From Opitutaceae bacterium (lineage in GTDB: Bacteria > Verrucomicrobiota > Verrucomicrobiia > Opitutales > Opitutaceae), in NCBI GenBank assembly GCA_003151495.1, contig PLXR01000163.1, forward strand, positions 1 to 64,000: a DNA stretch of 64,000 nucleotides, given 5' to 3'. The position numbers were made by a program, and so were the translations under genes. Below the pieces are notes generated by a model. It made no database searches. It was not told the origin of the DNA and was given only the letters and a program-made list of their open reading frames with translations. Positions 60,333 to 64,000 of this stretch are shown piece by piece (position 1 is the first letter of the stretch; each line of letters opens with the position of its first letter).

Positions 60333-61667
60333 ATGCCGTATGCCGCGTATGAGTTCGTGATCCTCGGGCTCCTGATCGTCGCCAACGGACTGATGACCGC
60401 GGCCGAGACCGCGTTCGTGTCGGCCCGCAAGGTGAAGCTCCTGAGGATGGCCGAGGCGGGCGGCGAGGGCGCCGGCGCCGCCCTGGTGATCGCGGAGCAT
60501 CCCGGCAGGTTCCTCGGGCTCGTGCAGTTCTGGCTGACCCTGACGTGCATCGTCGCAGGGGTGGCGCTGGTGTCCCCCGCCGCCCAGGAATTCGGGACCT
60601 GGTTCACGAGGTGGCCGGCGCTCGCGCCGTGGGCGGAGACAATCGGCCTTGTGGCGGGCACGCTCGGGATCAGCTCGGTCATGCTGCTTTTCGGGGAGCT
60701 CCTGCCCAAGCGGATCGTCCTTGCAAACCCGGAGCGCGCCGCGGCGATCCTCGGGCCGGCCATGCGCATGTTCTCGCGCGTCGTGAGCCCGTGCTCCGCC
60801 GTGCTCGGCCTGGCAAGCGAGGCCATCGCCACAGCCCTCGGGTTCCATCTCAGGCCGGTGTCCGAGACGGTGGGGGACGACGACGTGCGGGCGCTCGTCG
60901 AGCGCGGCCTCCACGCCGGCGTGTTCAAGCGCGCCAAGAAGGAGATGGTCGAGGGGGTGCTGTCCCTGGACAAGCTCCTCATCACGGCGATCATGACCCC
61001 CCGGGCCAAGATCGTGTTCCTCAACATCGACGACAACGAGGAGACCAACTGGAGGAAGATCGTGACGGGCGGGCACTCGTACTTCCCCGTCTACCAGAAG
61101 AACAGGGACCAGGTGGTCGGCATGGTGTCGGTCAAGGCGCTCTGGGCGAACTCCGCGATAGGCCTGCCCACGGCGCTCAAGAACCTGCTCGTGCCCCCGC
61201 TCATAGCTCCGGAGTCGATGACCGTCCTGCAGCTCCTGGAGCAGTTCAAGAAGACGGGCCGCCACACCGCGGTGGTCTCGGACGAGTTCGGCGCGGTGCA
61301 GGGCCTGGTCACGGTGATCGACGTGTTCGAGGCGATCGTGGGAGACCTGCCTGAGCCCGGGCACCGCAGCGAGTCCGGCGCGAAGCGCAGGGAGGACGGG
61401 TCGTGGCTGGTCGACGCGACGATGCCGATCGCCGAGCTCAAGTCCGTCCTGGGGATCAGGGAGCCGCTTCCGAACGAGGCCGAGGCGGAGTACAGGACGG
61501 CGGGGGGCTTCGTCGTGACCCAGTTCGGGCGCATTCCCGCGGTCGGCGACCGCTTCGAGTGGTCCGGCTGGCAGTTCGAGGTGGCCCAGATGGACCGCCG
61601 CAGGGTCGAGTCGCTCATCGTCGCCAGCACGACGCCGAAGGCTCCGGCCGCGAGGCAGGCCCAGTGA
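60333..61667 (+). CDS. CorC/HlyC-family membrane protein with CBS domains
   Basis: A 444-residue protein: DUF21/CNNM membrane domain with four helices (1-190; MTAAETAFVSARK, GELLPKRI), a pair of CBS domains (about 215-335; IMTPRAKIVFL, VVSDEFGAVQGLVT) and a C-terminal CorC_HlyC domain (about 355-430; EYRTAGGFVV). Relatives take part in magnesium or cobalt efflux. It is divergent from the ABC operon, with about 110 bases between. Confidence 0.92.
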   Translation: MPYAAYEFVILGLLIVANGLMTAAETAFVSARKVKLLRMAEAGGEGAGAALVIAEHPGRFLGLVQFWLTLTCIVAGVALVSPAAQEFGTWFTRWPALAPWAETIGLVAGTLGISSVMLLFGELLPKRIVLANPERAAAILGPAMRMFSRVVSPCSAVLGLASEAIATALGFHLRPVSETVGDDDVRALVERGLHAGVFKRAKKEMVEGVLSLDKLLITAIMTPRAKIVFLNIDDNEETNWRKIVTGGHSYFPVYQKNRDQVVGMVSVKALWANSAIGLPTALKNLLVPPLIAPESMTVLQLLEQFKKTGRHTAVVSDEFGAVQGLVTVIDVFEAIVGDLPEPGHRSESGAKRREDGSWLVDATMPIAELKSVLGIREPLPNEAEAEYRTAGGFVVTQFGRIPAVGDRFEWSGWQFEVAQMDRRRVESLIVASTTPKAPAARQAQ

Positions 61668-61737
61668 GCCCTGCCTGCGAATAACTTGTCGGCAAAGAGT
61701 CGTTGCGTTTGAGTCGGTCGCCGCCGACGTTTCGCGC

Positions 61738-61944
61738 ATGGCGGACACATGCAAGATGCCTTCACCGGAAAGCCAACCCGCATCCGGGGCCACGTCCTCC
61801 CGGACGAGGCCGGGCGAGCCGCTATTCAAGACGATCACGAGCGACGACTGGAAGCGCTCGCTCGACTTGGCGAGGCGGCAGCCAAATGCGATCTCCGAGC
61901 AGATTCGGACCGCGATCTCGTCCTCCTCGCGGAAGACGAAGTAA
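61738..61944 (+). CDS. small protein of unknown function
   Basis: A 68-residue hydrophilic frame with a Ser/Pro-rich N-terminus and a helical C-terminal half (FKTITSDDWKRSLDLARRQP). I do not recognise it. It overlaps the first ~200 bases of the kinase-like gene in another frame. Its amphipathic C-terminus looks more protein-like than the overlapping sequence of the kinase frame, so either or both may be translated. No clear ribosome-binding site. Confidence 0.45.
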   Translation: MADTCKMPSPESQPASGATSSRTRPGEPLFKTITSDDWKRSLDLARRQPNAISEQIRTAISSSSRKTK

Positions 61945-62681
61945 GCCTGCTTGAGGGGGCGGGCGCGCAATGGGCGTCCCTCGGCGAGGCGATCAGGGCG
62001 TTCCGGCGCAGCCTGCCGCTGCGGCCGCTTTCCGACTTCGGGTTCGCGGAGGGCGAGGGCAACCCCATCGAGGAGGCCAATCCCCGGCTGCGCCAGATCG
62101 GCGTGGGCGTGGAGGCGTGGGCCTACGAGGCCGTCGGAGAGGGCGCCGTCTACAAGTTCTACCGTCCGCGCGAGGGAAAGAGGATCGGAAGCGAGTTCGG
62201 ATTCCGGCGCGGCGGCGAGACGATCCTGGAGGCGGAGGCGGGGCTCGGCGACTACCGGGGCCTCCTTGAGAAGCTGCTCATCATCCAAGTGCTCGGGGGC
62301 ATGGCGACCGAGGTCGTCGCGGTGACGCCCGAGGGGATCCTGGTCGCAAAGCAGGTGCGCGGCGAGACGCTGCCCCAGGGCGAGGACATGTCAGGCAGCC
62401 TGCCGGGCGGCCTCATCGAGATCCCCTCGCGGTTCCTGAGGGCGGACCGGGACCATCCCCGGCTGCTCTTTGTCCGGGGCGTCCCCTACCTCGTCGCGGA
62501 CCTTCACGCGCGCAATTTCGTGCGCGGGGCCGACCGGGCGCTGCGGGTGATAGACCTCGTCGCCGGCCGTTGGCCGGCGGGGGCGCACCTGCGCGATCCC
62601 CTGATATCGGAGTGGCTGGGCCGGGTGCTCGCCAACCCCTCGGCCGCGGCCCTGCCGCAGGCGCCGGACGACGAGCTCTAG
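61749..62681 (+). CDS. polyvalent-protein-type kinase-like protein
   Basis: A 310-residue protein; the supported part starts at about residue 75. It resembles the kinase-like domain found in phage and plasmid polyvalent proteins: GVGVEAWAYEAVGEGAVYKFY as nucleotide loop with lysine, later YLVADLHARNFV as catalytic loop (Asp, Asn) and LRVIDLVAGRWP as metal-binding Asp. The target is unknown. The only good start codon, ATG 61749, lies inside the preceding small ORF, so the first 65 residues overlap it. A phage-linked origin is inferred from the family. Confidence 0.65.
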   Translation: MQDAFTGKPTRIRGHVLPDEAGRAAIQDDHERRLEALARLGEAAAKCDLRADSDRDLVLLAEDEVSLLEGAGAQWASLGEAIRAFRRSLPLRPLSDFGFAEGEGNPIEEANPRLRQIGVGVEAWAYEAVGEGAVYKFYRPREGKRIGSEFGFRRGGETILEAEAGLGDYRGLLEKLLIIQVLGGMATEVVAVTPEGILVAKQVRGETLPQGEDMSGSLPGGLIEIPSRFLRADRDHPRLLFVRGVPYLVADLHARNFVRGADRALRVIDLVAGRWPAGAHLRDPLISEWLGRVLANPSAAALPQAPDDEL

Positions 62682-62688
62682 ACCCCGG

Positions 62689-63210
62689 TCAACCCTTGTC
62701 GGCCGCGATGAAGTCCAGGATGGCCTGCGCCTGGGTCGTCGTCGTGCCCTTGTAGTCGGTGTAGACCACGACTCCCCCCTTGATGAGGTAGGCCGAGCGG
62801 TGGGCCATGCCGCCGGGGTAGGTCGTCACTCCGAACGAGCCAATGACCGCGTCCTCGGTGTCCGCGACGAGAGTGAACGGAAGGTGGTATTTCTCCTTGA
62901 AGGCCTTCTGGGAGGCGACGTCGTCATGGCTGACACCGATCACGGCCACGCCCTTGCCCGTCAGGCTCTCGTACCCGTCCCGGATCGAGCAGCCCTGGGC
63001 GGTGCAGCCGGGCGTATCGGCCTTGGGGTAGAAATAGACGAGGGTGTACCTCTGCTTGGAATAGACGTCCGAAAACTTGACGGGCTGGCCGGCGTCGGTG
63101 ACGCCGGTGACCTCGGGGGCCTTGTCGCCCACCTTGAGCTCGGCTTTTGCGTGGTTGGGCATGGCGAGGGCCAGCGGAAGGGCCAAAACGGCTAAAATCC
63201 TGTTTTTCAT
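62689..63210 (-). CDS. exported thioredoxin-dependent peroxiredoxin (BCP family)
   Basis: A 173-residue protein with a signal peptide (MKNRILAVLALPLALA, cleavage near AKA) and an AhpC/TSA fold. Peroxidatic Cys69 lies in YPKADTPGCTAQGCS, with a second cysteine 5 residues later (Cys74), as in BCP/PrxQ 1-to-5 types. It reduces peroxides in the periplasm. ATG 63210 fits the signal peptide; a start at 63240 would add ten odd residues. Its 3' end lies 7 bases from the kinase-like gene stop. Confidence 0.92.
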   Translation of the reverse strand: MKNRILAVLALPLALAMPNHAKAELKVGDKAPEVTGVTDAGQPVKFSDVYSKQRYTLVYFYPKADTPGCTAQGCSIRDGYESLTGKGVAVIGVSHDDVASQKAFKEKYHLPFTLVADTEDAVIGSFGVTTYPGGMAHRSAYLIKGGVVVYTDYKGTTTTQAQAILDFIAADKG

Positions 63211-63303
63211 GGGGCCTGCAAGCTGTTCCTTGGGGGCCATTTTTGCAAGCTGCCTGGACGGTTCGGAAATCGTCCGGATCGGGGCCCCTTTTCCGGAACC
63301 TTT

Positions 63304-63360
63304 TGCAATGCCGGTGAGACTAAAAAGCTCCTCCGGGAGCCCCCGCTACCCGGCATTGCA
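63304..63360. repeat. nested palindrome upstream of the peroxiredoxin gene
   Basis: An 11-bp perfect outer stem TGCAATGCCGG/CCGGCATTGCA (63304-63314, 63350-63360) encloses a second hairpin GCTCC-TCCG-GGAGC (63327-63340). On the minus strand the inner hairpin is followed directly by five U, which makes it a terminator. It lies between the divergent peroxiredoxin and delta-60 repeat genes. Confidence 0.65.
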
Positions 63361-63394
63361 TTTGTGCGCTTTCTCTGTAAGCAGCATTACCTTC

Positions 63395-64000
63395 ATGCCA
63401 TTCCTATCGTCCCCAAGAAGCCGGCTGTCCGGGCTCCCTTTTGCCGGCCTTGTGCTTCTGGTGTCCCTGGGCGCGGCTCTTGATGCCCGCTCGTTCACGC
63501 TCCCCAACGATGGGTTCGACCCGAACGCGAACGGGATCGTCAACACCCTGCTGATCCAGCCGGACGGTAAACTTTTGATGGGGGGATACTTTACGCAGAT
63601 TCATCCCTACGGGAATCCGATCTCGGGGCACAGCTACATCGCCAGGCTCAACCACGACGGCACGGTCGATTCCGGCTTCAGCCCCAACGCCAACGATGTG
63701 GTCCGGGTGATGGCCCTCCAGCCCAACGGCCAGATCATTGTCGGCGGCCAGTTCACGACGATCCAGCCGGGTGGCGGCGGGGCACCGGTTCCGCGCGGCT
63801 ATGTGGCACGGCTCAACGCCGACGGGTCGCTTGACAATGTCTTCAACCCGAACGCGAACGGGGTCGTCTATGCCGTGGCCTACCAGCCGAACGGCCAGAT
63901 CGTGATCGGCGGATCGTTCACGACGGTCCAGCCGGGAGGGGCCGCCGCCCCGACGACCCGCAACCATATCGCGAGGTTCAATTCGGACGGGACGCTCGAC
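63395..64000 (+). CDS. delta-60 repeat protein, N-terminal part
   Basis: An open frame of 202 residues running off the right edge. It has a signal peptide (hydrophobic about 10-30) and at least three repeats of about 54 residues beginning FDPNANG, FSPNAND and FNPNANG (residues 41, 95, 150), each continuing with QPDGK/QPNGQ and a GGxF motif. This is the delta-60 repeat, which builds beta-propellers in secreted or surface proteins. Full length and C-terminal domain are outside the window. Confidence 0.88.
   Translation, partial: MPFLSSPRSRLSGLPFAGLVLLVSLGAALDARSFTLPNDGFDPNANGIVNTLLIQPDGKLLMGGYFTQIHPYGNPISGHSYIARLNHDGTVDSGFSPNANDVVRVMALQPNGQIIVGGQFTTIQPGGGGAPVPRGYVARLNADGSLDNVFNPNANGVVYAVAYQPNGQIVIGGSFTTVQPGGAAAPTTRNHIARFNSDGTLD

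Follow-up and report, generated by a model that had tools for sequence, protein, structure and literature searches.

Among the described systems that come closest to the gene pair reported here is rnpA-rpmH of Thermus, in which a ribosomal protein gene is fully nested in the gene for an RNase P subunit and expression is guided by a Shine-Dalgarno sequence. The excerpted text of PMC9841429 terms it the sole earlier bacterial case of neighbouring starts, adds pqiA, tamA, and narQ of Escherichia coli, and also names a case from phage lambda. A nested same-strand gene is likewise known from Bacillus subtilis, where comS lies within srfA, and the portion of PMC12350097 that describes it states that genes inside genes are dropped by many annotation tools. 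Long same-strand overlaps in which both frames are demonstrably under selection are rarely documented in bacteria.

The pair that we describe resembles rnpA-rpmH, as presented in that excerpt, in having, at the 5' end of the larger gene, a small one nested in another frame with the two starts a few nucleotides apart, and resembles comS/srfA in that a small same-sense gene lies out of frame within a larger bacterial gene. It differs from the Thermus case in its products, a kinase and a phage-type small protein, and, in the form that we call type I, in having starts 11 to 20 nt apart with the small gene starting first. Nor, in type I, does a single Shine-Dalgarno motif serve two starts as it does in Thermus: just 4 of 108 loci show an SD-like core ahead of the small start. 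From comS/srfA, as far as the excerpt goes, the pair differs in that the overlap falls at the very beginning of the kinase gene, with the start codons close together. Our literature search, whose scope left out most subscription papers and the supplement of PMC5512222, found no description of this kinase/small-protein pair. The case stands out in that two versions occupy one place, each frame has relatives of its own, and no Shine-Dalgarno sequence is evident; it offers a natural, testable example of the way in which two proteins come to occupy common bases and of how ribosomes choose between starts 4 to 20 nt apart.

The window, by which we mean the whole analysed stretch of 64,000 nucleotides, belongs to a genome of the Opitutaceae or a near relative (Verrucomicrobiota). 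It contains a kinase-like ORF of 310 amino acids that begins within an ORF of 68 amino acids, both on the + strand and in different frames, with 196 bases in common. The preliminary description had placed the only normal start of the kinase gene inside the 68-residue ORF, with an overlap of about 196 bases, and the ORF list and a start scan both agree: between the point 12 codons upstream at which the kinase frame becomes open and residue 100, the ATG at 61749 is that frame's sole ATG, GTG, or TTG. The small frame is shifted by +1 against that of the kinase, and hence its second codon position is the kinase's third and its third is the kinase's first. The features of the region are as follows.

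60333 to 61667, + strand: upstream neighbour, CNNM/CorC-type transporter-associated protein (Pfam CNNM, CBS, and CorC_HlyC)
61677 to 61710, + strand: conserved upstream element, a putative promoter or operator, consensus near GCGAAnAACTTGTnGGCAAAnnnCCTTTGC (from 113 aligned upstream regions; not present at every locus)
61738 to 61944, + strand: small nested gene, type I small protein of 68 amino acids, with its ATG 11 nt before the kinase ATG
61749 to 61944, + strand: overlap of 196 bases, almost certainly dual coding (third-position suppression, two-way shuffles, two-frame substitution test, downstream controls)
61749 to 62681, + strand: predicted stand-alone kinase of polyvalent-protein type, 310 amino acids (ORF calling, AlphaFold2 model, conserved residues)
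61756 to 61758, + strand: second in-frame ATG of the small gene, at +7 from the kinase start
62154 to 62156, + strand: codon of Lys136, the putative ATP-binding lysine, invariant in 112/112 loci
62499 to 62516, + strand: DLHARN catalytic-loop motif, with Asp251, His253, and Asn256 invariant in 112/112 loci
62553 to 62555, + strand: codon of Asp269, the putative metal-binding aspartate, invariant in 112/112 loci
62689 to 63240, - strand: downstream convergent neighbour, peroxiredoxin (Pfam AhpC-TSA)

The CNNM/CorC-type and peroxiredoxin genes are markers of the site and lie outside the unit formed by the kinase and the small gene.

The kinase turned up in 68 of 189 related genomes and, in broader draws, in 23 of 288 and 45 of 384, counts that take in partial and weak matches as well as those of polyvalent type. 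Named genomes supplied 146 kinase stretches, 80 of which entered the analysis, and the relatives among these 80 are mostly titled Opitutaceae, Opitutae, Opitutus, or Verrucomicrobia. The 152 oriented type I loci were reduced to 114 distinct ones by treating as duplicates those identical over the first 600 kinase bases and by leaving out one locus with no upstream sequence (L187) and two very long ORFs (L068 and L069); subtracting two degraded copies (L036 and L067) gives 112 intact distinct loci. All 112 keep the +1 small ORF. The overlap measures 196 nt in 75 of them, 199 in 14, 202 in 21, and 205 in 2, and in a first set of 63 intact loci the small-frame stop stands at the same homologous place in 61 and is shifted by 6 bases in 2. 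In the 288-genome draw, the small-protein profile scored strongly (E of 4.5e-26 or better) in 17 genomes, which are the same 17 of their family that have the chromosomal kinase. A separate count gave the small frame in 81 of 140 family genomes. The small-frame survey did not extend to weak or partial kinase matches, among them G404, G410, G505, G607, G684, G612, G356, and G393, the last of which yielded a stretch with a partial kinase only.

The +1 ORF in the window gene alone means little, because 92.5% of 200 synonymous-codon shuffles of the kinase gene keep that frame open to the same point or beyond (P=0.93); the same shuffle applied across the 112 loci gives a mean of 69%. Given that openness, it is conservation alone that rules out a chance open frame. 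Over the last 40 codons, the small frame has an identity between loci of 0.659 (98 loci), compared with 0.349 (standard deviation 0.004, maximum 0.359, n = 200) in codon shuffles that preserve the kinase protein, and in the reverse shuffle the kinase-frame identity is 0.652 versus 0.419 when only the small protein is kept. The tests on 98 loci excluded 14 with a 6-base insertion. Pairwise differences at kinase third positions amount to 0.274 in overlap residues 30-64 and to 0.51-0.54 downstream of the overlap (63 loci), with weaker suppression, at 0.381, in the first part of the type I overlap (residues 2-29).

Substitutions tell the same story for each frame. Among 12,623 isolated single-base differences the largest share (6,208) falls at the small frame's third position, and the fraction altering the kinase is 0.568 where 0.714 is expected, the fraction altering the small protein 0.584 where 0.737 is expected. 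These are not independent events, because they are drawn from pairs of related loci, and the two-sided effect of selection is large despite that relatedness. Two downstream control blocks, residues 68-100 and 222-238, behave like ordinary single-frame sequence, +1-frame amino acid changes being above expectation at 0.899 and 0.956 against 0.720 and 0.705; the control result covers these two blocks, as blocks 24-64, 150-190, and 176-204 had no gap-free rows. By these patterns, purifying selection acts on both frames across the overlap, and dual coding is almost certain. The preliminary description had called for a look at homologous pairs, and there both frames proved conserved in all 112 intact loci, with purifying selection in each. 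It had also named loss of the small frame in relatives as evidence to the contrary; none of the 112 intact type I loci has lost it, although a 2,589-aa ORF of genome G056 contains a related kinase module without the small frame.

The kinase ATG lies at the homologous place or within 6 bases of it in 112/112 intact loci, and the small-frame start codons vary more: ATG in 93 and GTG in 15, standing 11, 14, 17, or 20 nt before the kinase ATG, with the in-frame ATG at +7 as the only nearby ATG, GTG, or TTG in the remaining 4. Separate initiation at the two starts is very probable. Farther upstream, GCGAAnAACTTGTnGGCAAA...CTTTGC is prominent in the consensus of 113 type I upstream regions, some loci being without it, and the search pattern built on it has a single exact match in the source genome. 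The copy at 61677-61710 (AACTTGTnGGCAA ... TTTGC) may be an unusual promoter or operator.

AlphaFold2 models the kinase confidently (pLDDT 90.4, pTM 0.90). The protein keeps a start motif, D-x-F-T-G-x-P-T-x-I, in the first half of the overlap, and E122, K136, Q202, D251, H253, N256, and D269 are each present in 112/112 loci, E174 in 109/112. In the model, E122 precedes the strand at 123-128 and Q202 ends the strand at 198-202. The C-terminal kinase subdomain appears to be lost in the predicted structure, where the 41 residues after D269 form one helix of at least 4 residues, and H253 and D269 are 16 positions apart, a spacing counted without a reference alignment. In the excerpt of PMC5512222 on which we draw, the published features of PolyVal kinases include a Glu before strand 2, a Gln in the final strand of the N-terminal part, conserved catalytic residues, and a shortened C terminus, and all four have counterparts here (Glu122 and Gln202 for the first two); a fifth is an insert between the phosphotransfer His and Asp, to which the spacing of 16 positions may or may not correspond. 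With most of the published features present in sequence and model, assignment of the putative kinase to the polyvalent-protein kind is supported. It differs from the PolyVal Ser/Thr/Tyr kinases of that excerpt in being stand-alone and chromosomal, in having a dual-coding N-terminal segment, and in having no related Pfam match.

The two viral fold matches at E<=0.001 are named "large polyvalent protein" and "PolyVal Serine/Threonine/Tyrosine Kinase" (E of 2.4e-4 and 2.9e-4, with low TM-scores of 0.32-0.36 by query length). Matches to protein kinases in the PDB (Foldseek best E 0.027; best Z 6.8, middling) were too weak to assign a known fold and were used for the label "kinase-like" only. Pfam at E<=0.1 returned two unrelated families, each for one member of 35 kinases, and NCBIfam, PHROGs, and PADLOC likewise gave nothing except weak, unrelated matches. 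Neither PLSDB nor INPHARED gave a tblastn match to the kinase, and none of 36 candidate stretches from a profile search of IMG/VR was a confirmed relative, which leaves no confirmed plasmid or phage carrier in the three collections. The preliminary description had called the kinase-like domain typical of phage and plasmid polyvalent proteins; the fold family bears this out, whereas no phage or plasmid with the gene was found.

The type I small protein consists of a Ser/Pro-rich N-terminal part followed by the core motif F-x-TIT-x-DDW-x-RS-L-x-x-AR-x-x-PNA-x-S-x-QIRT. AlphaFold2 places helices at residues 35-47 and 51-62 after an unstructured start, with low confidence (mean pLDDT 69.5, pTM 0.30). 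Pfam, NCBIfam, PHROGs, and PADLOC gave no family match save weak, unrelated ones, and three small proteins searched against INPHARED gave no matches.

Elsewhere in the class, in families f29, f33, and f130, distant kinases have a different nested +1 protein in the same place. This type II ORF is present in 10/10 loci with a full-length kinase frame; in 5 further loci (L279, L280, L282, L283, and L285) the small core and the kinase frame are open, the starts being outside the check, for a total of 15 type II pairs. The type II core reads LALPLT-x-x-ER-x-x-S-x-x-x-L-x-x-LHPGNRFRLMFG-x-PLLP. In 9 loci (L212 and L222 were left out of the rate test), kinase third positions differ by 0.248 in residues 31-66, below the first positions at 0.387, and by 0.564 in residues 3-30 and 0.64-0.69 in residues 80-290. 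A kinase-frame TTG or GTG stands exactly 4 nt before the small ATG in 6/10 loci, a spacing like that of the AUGGAUG of Thermus in the excerpted account; 2/10 loci have a start 7 nt before the small ATG, 1/10 a GTG 13 nt before it, and the remaining genome (G344) no normal start codon around the position expected for the kinase. Because some loci also offer upstream alternatives, these type II kinase starts are presumptive. Profile comparison relates the kinase N-terminal segments of the two types (probability 65.5, E 5.9e-5) and finds no relation between their small proteins (probability 0.7), giving no support for treating these as one family and leaving a shared partner function of types I and II no more than possible.

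The explanation that we favour, and consider somewhat probable taken whole, is a true same-strand overlapping pair with one transcript, two starts, and a small protein that is the partner of the kinase. A single transcript, probably made from the conserved upstream element, would be read by ribosomes from two differently framed start codons, 11 nt from each other, with no Shine-Dalgarno sequence evident. The products would be the 68-aa small protein from one frame and the 310-aa stand-alone kinase of polyvalent-protein type from the other, such that the N-terminal segment of the kinase (residues 1 to about 65) would share its bases with nearly the whole small protein. Within the overlap, the first half would be constrained mainly for the kinase, whose start motif is there, and the second half, with the small core, for both. 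The pair was probably assembled from phage-type material and then settled on the chromosome, and the small protein is most likely made alongside the kinase as its partner, be it a regulator, an inhibitor, or a docking subunit. We infer translation of both frames, the single transcript, the origin, and the physical or functional partnership. For a functional partnership between the two proteins, considered by itself, the chances seem evenly balanced; it would be the simplest reason for the pair to have been kept at 112 type I and 15 type II loci. If it is true, a kinase family with a role that is so far only predicted, in the excerpted text of PMC5512222, gains a small-protein regulator.

The preliminary description had suggested a toxin-antitoxin-like or defence module of a small partner and a kinase. 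In a kinase-type toxin-antitoxin or abortive-infection system, free kinase would be harmful, the small protein made from the same mRNA would restrain it, and interference by a phage could act as the trigger. As in such systems, the overlapping genes are kept or lost together: 112/112 loci have both, and in four kinase-free genomes of the same genus the peroxiredoxin gene comes directly after the CNNM-type gene, a clean empty site from which both genes of the unit are missing (G008, a further genome of that genus, lacked a CNNM match and yielded no such site). Presence is patchy (kinase in 68/189 relatives, small frame in 81/140 family genomes), and the small protein has relatives in viral contigs. 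What little this explanation gains further comes from the eroding copies, because these keep the small core while the kinase breaks: the kinase is broken and the small core open in L036 and L067 (type I) and in L284 and L286 (type II), and both are broken in L289. These copies, open in the small core in 4/5 cases (L067 without the usual small start, the start of L286 outside the check), number just five, however, and may be recent or partly assembly errors.

A toxin-antitoxin role is weakened because the site is chromosomal and recurrent and because the collections searched hold no mobile carriers. Where the flanks were long enough, 54 of 117 loci have the CNNM/CorC-type gene upstream and 75 of 120 the convergent peroxiredoxin gene downstream, in a survey of 125 loci that included 11 distant ones with neither neighbour and 2 degraded ones. 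Several carriers, among them G016, G060, and G082, consist of a single contig of millions of bases, and the unit is therefore chromosomal in these. No plasmid or phage carrier was found in PLSDB or INPHARED, and PADLOC-DB 2.0.0, searched with the window kinase, the small protein, and one type II pair, returned no family at E<=1. The conserved pairing that the suggestion implied has thus stood, while the lack of a PADLOC match or a plasmid or phage record and the recurrent chromosomal site count against its defence role, and we regard a toxin-antitoxin or abortive-infection system as rather unlikely.

It is also possible, if unlikely, that a phage-type small gene and a kinase gene with two unrelated functions became interlocked by chance and are now inseparable. 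Each frame does occur without the other. IMG/VR viral contigs hold ORFs with the type I core at 19 loci, several of them near-identical (with E-values relative to the candidates only), and in 18/19 the kinase-equivalent frame contains a stop between 60 bases before the match and the end of the small ORF. The type II core occurs there at 10 loci, again several near-identical. Many of the viral small-core ORFs are 57-72 aa long, and in one locus (L245) the core forms the start of an ORF that matches Sak4-like ssDNA annealing proteins (PHROG 124, E 5.1e-19). These viral proteins with TIT-x-DW or LHPGNRFRLMFG (IMG/VR L227-L255) share the type I or type II core motif with the chromosomal pairs and differ from them in being independent genes or parts of other ORFs, with no kinase seen in the other frame.

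On the other side, the kinase module related to ours in the 2,589-aa ORF of G056 (L068; E 3.5e-16) begins with the DPFTG motif but has no small-like +1 frame; searched in its turn, it had no match in PLSDB or INPHARED. Because this relative has the N-terminal motif and no small frame, the kinase fold can exist without the latter. Each frame has lone relatives, and therefore neither is a mere shadow of the other. The difference between the type I and type II small proteins would also fit unrelated functions, but several of the class's families show the nested arrangement, and a small +1 ORF accompanies every intact chromosomal kinase examined, 112 of type I and 15 of type II.

A further variant, which we find improbable, is that the small protein is a bait or safety catch that mimics its phage relative and holds the kinase off until infection frees it. 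Nesting within the kinase N terminus would then make the loss of either gene costly and might be a recurring bacterial trick, and the type I and type II small proteins, with no recognisable kinship but in the same nested position, would look as if the bait had been exchanged; both suggestions are as improbable as the bait itself.

Very improbable is a regulatory leader, in which translation of the small ORF would control kinase synthesis and the peptide itself would be irrelevant. The starts are 11-20 nt apart in 108/112 loci, so ribosomes could compete or couple there, but the peptide is conserved at the amino acid level and its core has relatives that are independent genes. An RNA or DNA element, or kinase-only coding with a +1 ORF born of base composition, is scarcely credible: an open +1 frame is expected by chance in the window (P=0.925), but the differences obey the codon rules of both frames, which such an element would ignore, two downstream stretches do not obey them, and Rfam has no match in 61500-62900. 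Just as hard to credit is a programmed frameshift that makes the kinase as a fusion from the small ORF, since the two frames do have a long open stretch in common but in 112/112 intact loci an ATG of the kinase's own lies no more than 6 bases from the homologous place and no conserved slippery run is visible by eye near the small stop.

Several minor observations concern relatives of either protein. L068 (G056, 2,589 aa) and L069 (G090, 2,255 aa) are very long ORFs with a kinase match, in genomes of the same family, and are possibly polyvalent proteins of mobile elements. Short type I-like motifs with weak scores occur in other contexts in L109, L116 (G276), and L115 (G085), and these may be real short relatives of the type I small protein; the small-protein matches L110-L114 are weak, looked chance-like by eye, and were set aside. 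Viral proteins of 61-68 aa at L232 (4938-5129), at loci near-identical to it, and at L229 and L241 combine an N-terminal motif, GKGDxPRxCFSxxYRxNYDxIF, with the type I core, and the next gene in L229 and L241 is primase-type in appearance. Several neighbours of the viral small ORFs are, judged by eye, what we take to be replication or recombination genes. Within the window, an ORF at 63077-64000 runs off the end; its repeated units contain PNANG, and it may encode a beta-propeller-type repeat protein.
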